64,000 nucleotides of DNA from positions 1 through 64,000 of the forward strand of contig JADEWQ010000018.1 in NCBI GenBank assembly GCA_015207585.1. Direction: 5' to 3'. A program made the translations under genes and the position numbers. Below are positions 1,077 to 63,361 of the stretch, one piece after another. Below the pieces are notes generated by a model, which saw only the letters and a program-made list of their open reading frames with translations, made no database searches and was not told the DNA's origin. How positions within the stretch are numbered: the stretch's first letter is position 1; each line of letters begins with the position of its first letter. Source of the stretch: Pleurocapsales cyanobacterium LEGE 06147. GTDB taxonomy: Bacteria; Cyanobacteriota; Cyanobacteriia; Cyanobacteriales; Xenococcaceae.

Positions 1077-1106
1077 GTGAAAACACTGCGCGCCCAGCGC
1101 ACTCAA
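1077..1106. repeat. Internally deleted copy of the 96-bp palindromic element
   Basis: The left end GTGAAAACACTGCGC is joined directly to the right end CCCAGCGCACTCAA through one extra base. Both ends match the termini of the full copies at 3382-3482 and 62586-62686, so about 70 internal bases are missing. The right end supplies the stop codon of the reverse-strand gene at 1103-1435. Confidence 0.75.
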
Positions 1107-2931: not shown

Positions 2932-4218
2932 ATGATGTCAAAAAATCTACAATTACCGCAAAAAATAATGTTACTTGGTTCCGGAGAACTAGGCAAAGAA
3001 TTTGTTATTGCCGCTCACAGACTGGGTAATTTTGTAGTAGCAGTAGATCGTTATGCTAATGCACCAGCGATGCAAGTGGCAGATAAACTTGAAGTCATTT
3101 CAATGCTGGATGGCAACGATCTAGAAAGAGTCGTACAGCAATACCAACCCGATTTTATCGTGCCAGAGATTGAAGCAATCCGCACTGAAAAGTTAATTGA
3201 ATTGGAACAGAGAGGTTACACTGTTATCCCTACAGCAGCGGCTACCAACTACACCATGAATCGCGATCGCATTCGCGAACTCGCTCACACCCAACTAGGC
3301 ATTAGAACGGCTAAATATGCCTATGCTACCAGTTTAGAAGAATTAGTTGCAGTTTCCGAGCAAATTGGCTTTCCCAATGTCGTGAAAACACTGCGCTTCC
3401 TGCGCGGGAACGGGGCTTACAAGGGGCTGAAGTAAATTCAGCCCACAGCCCCTCACCAAGTTCCCGCCCCCAGCGCACTCAAACCAGTCATGTCTTCTTC
3501 CGGTAAGGGTCAATCGGTGGTTAATTCAGCCGCAGAAGTAGCCAAAGCATGGCATTATGCTATTGAAGGAGCGAGGGGAGACACCCAAAAAGTAATTGTG
3601 GAAGAGTTTATCGATTTTGAGATTGAAATTACTTTACTAACCGTTAAACAGTGGGATGCACCGACGCTTTTCTGTCCGCCTATCGGACATCGCCAAGAAA
3701 GAGGCGACTACCAAGAATCTTGGCAACCGACAGATAATATATCTGAAGCACAAATAGTGCAAGCACAAAAAATCGCCCAAAAGGTTACCGATGCTTTAGG
3801 AGGTGCTGGAATCTTTGGCATGGAATTTTTTATTACTAAAGATGAAGTAATTTTTTCCGGACTGTCTCCCCGTCCTCACGATACCGGAATGGTAACTTTA
3901 GTCTCTCAAAATCTTAATGAATTTGAATTACATTTGCGGACAATTTTAGGTTTACCCATTCCCAAGATAGAAGTATTTTCTCCTTCAGCCAGTGCAGTAA
4001 TTTTAGCCAGCGAACATTTAGAGCGAATAGTTTTTGCAAACGTTTCAGAAGCTTTAGCCATTCCCGATGTAGATATCAGGCTGTTTGGCAAACCAGATTC
4101 TCGTCCTTATCGTCGCATGGGAGTTGCTTTAGCTAAAGGAGATACAGTAGCACGAGCAAGAGAAAAAGCGACAACAGCAGCTAGCAAGGTAGTAATAAGA
4201 GGTACTTCACCAGATTAA
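2932..4218 (+). pseudogene. purT: purT split by a 96-bp repeat (formate-dependent GAR transformylase)
   Basis: Two adjacent reading frames together cover PurT, the ATP-grasp enzyme that formylates glycinamide ribonucleotide with formate in purine synthesis. The first part (2932-3435, 167 aa) carries the N-terminal pre-ATP-grasp domain with [10 protein letters not shown]. The second (3490-4218, 242 aa) begins MSSSGKGQ and carries the rest of the ATP-grasp domain, including PRPHDTGMVT. Removing 96 bp at 3388-3483 restores the family sequence VVKPVMSSSGKGQ without a frame change. The insert keeps frame but brings one TAA at 3433-3435, just before the ATP-binding loop. The gene may be dead, may make two complementing halves (an ATG lies at 3490, without an obvious ribosome binding site), or may be read through. 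Both halves otherwise look undamaged, suggesting a recent event. Confidence 0.85.
3382..3482. repeat. Palindromic repeat element, full copy in purT
   Basis: The 101-bp stretch is identical, base for base, to 62586-62686. The net insertion is 96 bp. It contains nested inverted repeats: GCGGGAAC with GTTCCCGC, and an inner hairpin GGGCTGAA / TTCAGCCC. Short A runs at both edges are compatible with a small target duplication. It encodes no protein of its own and resembles a non-autonomous, MITE-like or RPE-like element. Confidence 0.85.
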
Positions 4219-62302: not shown

Positions 62303-63361
62303 ATGAGCCAACAGCAAGAAGCGAAAACTTTTGGCGACTGGGCAAAGATTGCGATCGCCAAACATTTTGACAAGATACTAAAACACGAAAACGAAGTACT
62401 GCAAGACAAAGATCCGGAAGAATTGCATCAAATGCGGGTTGGGATGCGTCGTTTGCGTAGTGCGATGACTGGCTTTGCTCCTGCCATAAATCTACCCAAA
62501 CCAGCAGGCGAAAAACAAGTTGGCAAAGTTGCCAAAGTGCTGGGAAAGCTTAGAGATTTAGATGTTTTGCAAAAAAGTCTCAAAAGTGAAAACACTGCGC
62601 TTCCTGCGCGGGAACGGGGCTTACAAGGGGCTGAAGTAAATTCAGCCCACAGCCCCTCACCAAGTTCCCGCCCCCAGCGCACTCAATACGAACCAAATTT
62701 ACCCTCAGCCGAACAAAAAAGCTTAGCTACTGTATTAAAGTTTCTCAAAAAGCAACGCAAGCAAGCTTTCAAGGAAGTTAAAACAATACTCTATGGAGAT
62801 CGCTATATTCGCTTTAAACAGGAGTTACAAGACTGGCTGGAACAACCAAGTTATCAACCTATCGCTGCTCTTAAGATTGAATTGGTTTTACCCGATTTAC
62901 TTTTACCCCAAATCGGTAAATTGTTACTTCATCCTGGCTGGTTAGTAGGAGTCGAAATTAAAGAAGGAGAGATCGAATATTTCGATGGAGTCGATCCCCA
63001 AATAGTAGAACAAACCCTTGAAAGTCGGGGAGAAATATTACACGATCTACGTAAAGAAGCCAAGCGCTCGCGCTACAATATGGCTTTGTTTACCCAATTT
63101 TATGGGGAAGCTTATCAAGACTATCTACAGCAAATCAAAGATATTCAAGAAATATTAGGTCAGATCCAAGACAGTTTTATTTTAGTAGAGTTCCTCGAAT
63201 CAGTCTTAGAGTCGGATATTCACAAACAAATGCCAACTTTGGCAGAACAATTGAGTAAAACCCGCTTTCAAAAATGGCAGGAATGGGAAAAATTACAGCG
63301 GCACTTTCTTAATTGGGAAAAACGACAAGATTTGCGCACCATCGTGCAACATCCCCAATGA
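62303..63361 (+). CDS. CHAD domain protein with in-frame repeat-derived segment
   Basis: The 352-residue protein is a CHAD domain, a helical bundle with conserved histidines and basic residues that binds polyphosphate. Visible features are ELHQMRVGMRRLRSAM (about 36-51), LGKLRDLDVL (about 80-89) and LHDLRKEAKRSRYNM (about 248-262). Residues about 97-128 ([11 protein letters not shown] ... SSRPQRTQ) are encoded by a complete copy of the 96-bp palindromic element, which is open in this frame and lengthens a loop by 32 residues. The protein is otherwise intact. It follows a small helical gene with no spacing. Confidence 0.9.
   Translation: MSQQQEAKTFGDWAKIAIAKHFDKILKHENEVLQDKDPEELHQMRVGMRRLRSAMTGFAPAINLPKPAGEKQVGKVAKVLGKLRDLDVLQKSLKSENTALPARERGLQGAEVNSAHSPSPSSRPQRTQYEPNLPSAEQKSLATVLKFLKKQRKQAFKEVKTILYGDRYIRFKQELQDWLEQPSYQPIAALKIELVLPDLLLPQIGKLLLHPGWLVGVEIKEGEIEYFDGVDPQIVEQTLESRGEILHDLRKEAKRSRYNMALFTQFYGEAYQDYLQQIKDIQEILGQIQDSFILVEFLESVLESDIHKQMPTLAEQLSKTRFQKWQEWEKLQRHFLNWEKRQDLRTIVQHPQ
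62586..62686. repeat. Palindromic repeat element, full copy in the CHAD gene
   Basis: Identical over 101 bases to 3382-3482. The net insertion is 96 bp (about 62591-62686), and the flanking codons join to a normal CHAD sequence when it is removed. It is read in a different frame from the purT copy and has no stop there. Confidence 0.85.

Follow-up and report, generated by a model that had tools for sequence, protein, structure and literature searches.

An in-frame palindromic repeat in the CHAD gene and other genes of a Pleurocapsales cyanobacterium

Rickettsia palindromic elements are dispersed palindromes of ~50–150 bp, which are inserted in frame in unrelated genes and are read in a favoured frame that gives a conserved peptide (PMC10969869, PMC3733652). 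REPs are short hairpins present in many copies, some of them intragenic (PMC3733652), and REPs inside tnpA-REP genes were described for a subclass abundant in cyanobacteria (PMC6006769). For IS200/IS605 elements, it was reported that TnpA binds subterminal hairpins and that the left end lies next to a conserved target (PMC6006769). A search of open-licence papers returned no report of in-frame coding palindromes in cyanobacteria; such palindromes are best known from Rickettsia. To our knowledge, the mechanism by which the Rickettsia elements insert is not known.

We analysed a stretch of 64,000 nucleotides (the window) from Pleurocapsales cyanobacterium LEGE 06147. It belongs to contig 219 of a draft assembly (6.23 Mb, 244 contigs), and the family of the organism includes Stanieria. 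The window carries a repeat which resembles the Rickettsia elements in being a dispersed palindrome of similar size class at many unrelated loci (39 two-ended copies, with compensatory changes) and in being inserted in frame into functional-looking ORFs (~24 genic copies). In contrast to them, it forms a cyanobacterial family in another phylum, with a fixed and retained target, exact junctions and nested modules. We know of no sequence shared between the two, and the likeness is taken as one of behaviour; the first-pass annotation, which had called the repeat similar in style to the Rickettsia elements, was apt as to the way of working, not as to membership. With miniature elements derived from IS200/IS605, the repeat shares terminal or subterminal hairpins, a short fixed one-sided target, no duplication and no coding capacity of its own, but no parent insertion sequence with matching ends was found at the 14 Y1 loci of the draft assembly, the outer stem starts at the target and the element is adapted to coding sequence. 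REP/REPIN repeats are likewise short hairpins in many copies, but they are mostly intergenic and GTAG/CGTC-tagged, whereas the present element is mostly genic and tagless, and no class-2 TnpA was seen among the readable Y1 motifs. The small dispersed repeats of Nostoc are also cyanobacterial, form hairpins with compensatory changes and occur as nested copies, but they are 21–27 nt long, and we know of no in-frame coding insertion among them. On the whole, the repeat is probably a non-autonomous in-frame mobile palindrome at CTCAA, served in trans by a Y1/HUH mover of the IS200/IS605 type.

The CHAD insertion and the other copies in the window

The CHAD-domain gene (62303–63361, plus strand; Pfam PF05235, E = 5e-61) encodes 352 aa, or ~320 aa without the insert. 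When the protein was compared with 23 orthologs, the alignment held to about residue 94 and resumed at about residue 127. At the junction, 34 residues of the window's protein stood against two in each of the 23 orthologs, a net gain of 32 codons or 96 nt, and the CHAD reading frame crossed the insert with zero stops. The 32 extra residues without a stop that had been noted from the sequence alone were thus confirmed in number. Because the segment was missing in all 23 orthologs, it was assigned as a 96-nt insertion. The element occupies 62586–62681 (plus strand) in phase 1, the first base of its first codon (62585) being supplied by the host, and its boundaries were placed by means of empty sites at several loci. 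It is followed at 62682–62686 (plus strand) by one unduplicated copy of the retained target CTCAA (TTGAG on the opposite strand), which is found as ACT CAA in ortholog L123 and as xCT CAA at other empty sites. The two junction residues are T-Q in several CHAD orthologs, in one of which the coding sequence is ACT CAA TAT. The element had been given as 101 bases; these 101 bases are indeed repeated, but the mobile unit is 96 nt and the final CTCAA is the pre-existing target.

It might be argued that the CHAD segment is an ancestral feature which other lineages lost, or that it is an assembly artefact, as two identical copies lie on one contig. However, the 23 orthologs that lack it come from many genera, the same sequence occurs in unrelated genes, the flanks of the CHAD insert are orthologous on either side and the repeat has a length of only 101 bases, and we regard this explanation as hardly credible.

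The second of these copies lies in purT (2932–4218, plus strand). As the first-pass annotation had stated, it is identical to the CHAD copy, with an exact match over 101 bases on the same strand (62586–62686 = 3382–3482), and it is read in a different frame, phase 0 versus phase 1. The 96-nt element (3382–3477, plus strand) contains an in-frame TAA at 3433–3435, which splits purT into ORFs of 167 aa (2932–3435) and 242 aa (3490–4218), while the frame downstream is retained. Its CTCAA target is located at 3478–3482 (plus strand), and relatives have the insert-free sequence NV(V/I)KPVMSS. Here an identical copy has disrupted the gene recently; the purT copy is an exception among the genic copies. 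Loss of purT appears bearable, because high-identity PurT was missing in 9 of 23 relatives. The idea of in-frame mobile insertion holds for the CHAD copy, but the copy in purT breaks its gene and is not to be counted as a tolerated in-frame insertion.

A short form of the element, 25 nt in length (1077–1101, plus strand), was found directly behind the TGA stop of a minus-strand ORF (1103–1435), with its CTCAA target at 1102–1106 (plus strand). This copy and those at loci L065 and L074 each follow directly on a gene that has its TGA stop within the TTGAG target, and their lengths are not divisible by three.

Family size, empty sites and target

Ten 101-base copies with 98–100% identity were found in the genome. 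When up to 3 mismatches were allowed, the 18-base sequence of the 5′ end gave 44 matches, versus 0 for the reversed-pattern control; such recurrence is far beyond chance. Two-ended copies numbered about 39, with total lengths of 30–140 bases. Rather than nearly all of them being intergenic, ~24 of the 39 lay inside genes, nearly all in open frames. A covariance model built from ten 56-base copies gave 55 matches in the genome, some of them being the same hairpin matched on its reverse strand, and detected clear copies in both Stanieria genomes and in genome G003. The 5′ end was GTGAAAACAC in nearly all copies, and a sister subfamily (GTGAAATCACCGAGTC...GACTCG/CTCAA, the slash marking the junction) had a different outer stem but shared end and target with the main family. 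GTDB contigs and IMG/VR, from which records very near the window's genome were possibly left out, gave no exact match to 23- and 19-base patterns of the outer end. No Rfam match above threshold was obtained, the only one being a weak microRNA match far under its cut-off.

Besides the CHAD locus (23 of 23 orthologs), empty sites were observed in relatives at the RuBisCO-like, TrpD, FemAB-like, Tex and CpeS-like loci. The relatives had CTCAA or xCTCAA at the CHAD, RuBisCO-like, TrpD, FemAB-like and aldolase sites, for example as GAA ACT CAA CTA (RuBisCO-like), GGT ACT CAA GCC (TrpD) and AAG CCT CAA TAT (FemAB-like), and in the CHAD, TrpD and FemAB-like genes the host base before GTG was the first base of the relative's codon. 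The chance of xCTCAA in relatives at 5 of 8 sites was roughly estimated as ~1e-7 with five relatives assumed for each, a value that becomes some orders of magnitude weaker, but still small, when all compared loci are counted. The DUF427, methyltransferase, permease, glycosyl hydrolase and GGDEF-EAL sites were less conserved, and their alignment was too loose for junction placement.

From the relatives' empty-site sequences at CHAD and the five other loci, the junction rule N/GTGAAA...GCGCA/CTCAA was deduced, by which, as read from these alignments, the host CTCAA is kept and zero bases are duplicated or lost. CTCAA was exact in 35 of the 39 copies, and the outer flanking bases were variable. 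The check for a target duplication proposed in the first-pass annotation revealed none in the flanks of the 39 copies; a fixed, retained CTCAA was found instead. A classical MITE of DDE transposons was rejected, because the flanks lack a target site duplication. As far as comparison between genomes reaches, the junctions, the target, movement of the element in the course of evolution, its in-frame length and the absence of stops from the frame used can be taken as demonstrated. In genome G003, related elements (L251, L266) ended in CTAAA rather than CTCAA, which possibly reflects a changed target preference.

Reading frames and host proteins

The inserted length was divisible by three in all 24 genic copies (45 to 135) versus 10 of 15 other copies (Fisher p = 0.005), a contrast that is partly circular because the genic calls were made from open frames. 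The circularity is offset in part by the out-of-frame copies at L065, L074 and L088, which lie behind a natural stop codon within the target. If the insert were cut out of the mRNA or bypassed by the ribosome, no open frame would be necessary, and the downstream frame of purT, retained despite the stop in the insert, would be accounted for. Open frames and lengths in threes would then be unneeded, yet every genic copy has a length divisible by three; moreover, no Rfam ribozyme or intron match was found, and a broken purT is bearable given its absence from the nine relatives. Splicing or skipping is thus very improbable, and on the preferred reading of an in-frame mobile palindrome the extra codons would be translated.

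Among the genic copies, 16 were read in sense phase 1 (ENTALPARE...), 5 in sense phase 0 and 3 in antisense phase 1, and the commonest reading was ENTALPARE...SRAQRTQ. The peptide in the favoured frame was strongly hydrophilic (GRAVY of −1.3). Sense phase 1 was more frequent than expected (16 of 24 versus 40%, p = 0.008), although the sense-phase distribution alone was not significant (chi-square p = 0.16). Of the genic CTCAA in the genome, phase 1 accounts for 57%, phase 0 for 37% and phase 2 for 6%, and the 51-nt form is open in four phases, covering nearly all target sites; therefore, the target itself steers insertions toward open frames. As genic CTCAA is mostly read as xCT CAA, which is the open phase of the element, an insertion usually adds 15–45 codons in frame. 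The phase bias was rejected as proof of selection, since the codon phases of CTCAA account for most of the sense-phase distribution; the tests relied on were those of length and open frame. Selection would add to the target steering, on the basis of the divisibility of lengths by three and the phase-1 sense excess; selection against disruptive copies would keep the lengths in threes. A more tentative idea, possible but not one towards which we lean, is that target choice, length and reading frames were jointly shaped by life inside genes, with CTCAA mostly in open phases, body and nested modules changing by multiples of three, and the favoured frame giving a soluble linker.

Host proteins included CHAD, Tex, RuBisCO-like, a TrpA-TrpD fusion, CpeS-like, DUF427, class II aldolase and an ArsP-type permease, and further FemAB-like, RibD reductase, GGDEF/EAL, M16 peptidase, TetR and HAD proteins. 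The Tex insert was located in the YqgF-like domain, and the insertion at L064 altered just the last residues of a protein. The first-pass proposal of a mobile repeat that enters coding sequence in frame was supported by the mostly open frames of the genic copies, their lengths in threes and the empty sites in orthologs. Because the repeat lands at CTCAA and its length is a multiple of three, it would be read through as extra amino acids in many unrelated proteins. Most insertions would add a hydrophilic linker, as in CHAD, Tex, RuBisCO-like, TrpD and FemAB-like proteins, and a closed-frame insertion would break the gene, as in purT; selfish DNA would in this way supply ready-made linkers to conserved enzymes. 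The element-bearing ORF at L073 (678–1775, plus strand) combines the N-terminal half of TrpA with the C-terminal half of TrpD (Pfam Trp_syntA, Glycos_transf_3), and is a gene fusion or a rearranged paralog.

Candidate mobiliser and nested modules

As read, the element inserts directly 5′ of CTCAA, which on the opposite strand is 3′ of TTGAG, and leaves the target unduplicated. In the mechanism that we propose, the mover would be a Y1/HUH transposase of the IS200/IS605 type, acting in trans on single-stranded hairpin DNA at TTGAG. This assignment was made because the fixed short one-sided target, the lack of duplication and the terminal hairpins fit IS200/IS605 transposition. The genome gave 14 Y1 matches, whose readable motifs were of the Y..NQ or Y...Q class, and class-1 IS200-type TnpA genes were present. 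A transposase acting in trans had been suggested as something to look for; an end search in the draft assembly found none with matching ends among the 14 Y1 loci, and the mobiliser is for this reason only a putative one. The geometry of the element, whose outer stem begins right at the target, is unlike IS608 and counts against the Y1 model.

The element could instead be of the REP type and served by TnpA-REP (RAYT), whose cleavage would fall at the CT of the reading-strand CTCAA. TnpA-REP cleaves at CT beside a hairpin (PMC8266576), and CT directly follows the hairpin in our element; cyanobacterial TnpA-REP genes are also on record, some with REPs inside (PMC6006769). But no class-2 (Y..NP) protein was seen among the Y1 matches with a readable motif, a few fragments being unreadable, and the foot of the hairpin carried neither a GTAG nor a CGTC tag, GTGA being ten bases from the stem. 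A TnpA-REP mover is considered distinctly unlikely.

The 101-base repeat was predicted to fold as a nested hairpin, with −47.8 kcal/mol and a z of −5.8 as RNA, and a z of −5.9 for the opposite-strand DNA. In the 56-base copies, 90% of the pairing cells were standard, and five pairs had changed on both sides, which was matched by 2 of 500 shuffles; the signal was register specific. Fold and compensatory changes support an outer stem that, in the CHAD copy, consists of the 5′ arm TGCGCT (62596–62601) and the 3′ arm AGCGCA (62676–62681), and between them lies the inner 45-nt hairpin module (62616–62660; all on the plus strand), which distinguishes the 96-nt from the 51-nt form seen in other copies. 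One TPR gene is orthologous in two Stanieria genomes, with closely similar sequence next to the element. Stanieria PCC 7437 (G001) has the 51-nt form there and the second genome (G008) the 96-nt form, and the two differ by exactly 45 nt, the inner hairpin, which keeps the frame.

The nested copies and strong RNA folding recall the small dispersed repeats of Nostoc, for which an RNA-mediated process was suggested. The same in-frame mobile palindrome might be moved by such a process or by an unknown integrase, and no cognate transposase was found among the 14 Y1 loci. However, an exact, fixed, one-sided target without duplication is a signature of Y1/HUH elements, and class-1 TnpA genes are at hand, so another mover seems unlikely. 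If the more tentative idea of joint shaping by life inside genes is true, the element would be a frame-neutral mobile protein insert, with a single-strand, target-specific Y1 insertion mechanism that would be testable for the Rickettsia elements. The sequences of these free-living bacteria directly display empty sites, exact junctions, the target and, between two sister genomes, a stepwise nested insertion, which makes the insertion mechanism testable.

TnpB genes in Xenococcaceae genomes from metagenomes also contain an identical inner hairpin, read in the same frame and lacking the outer ends, and this hairpin is similar to one beside an IS605-like tnpA in the window's genome. TnpB genes of related cyanobacteria (L246:1824–3128, L247:6365–7627, L250 and L259) carry in-frame palindromes, and a TnpB-like ORF of Stanieria PCC 7437 apparently carries two; TnpB may be a favoured landing place for palindromes. 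In the TnpB gene of L246, the reading frame also seems to run through a second, unrelated palindromic stretch (2110–2160; GGCGACATAAACGCCTGGGGTTTCCCCAGGCGAC...), a hint that coding palindromes comprise more families.
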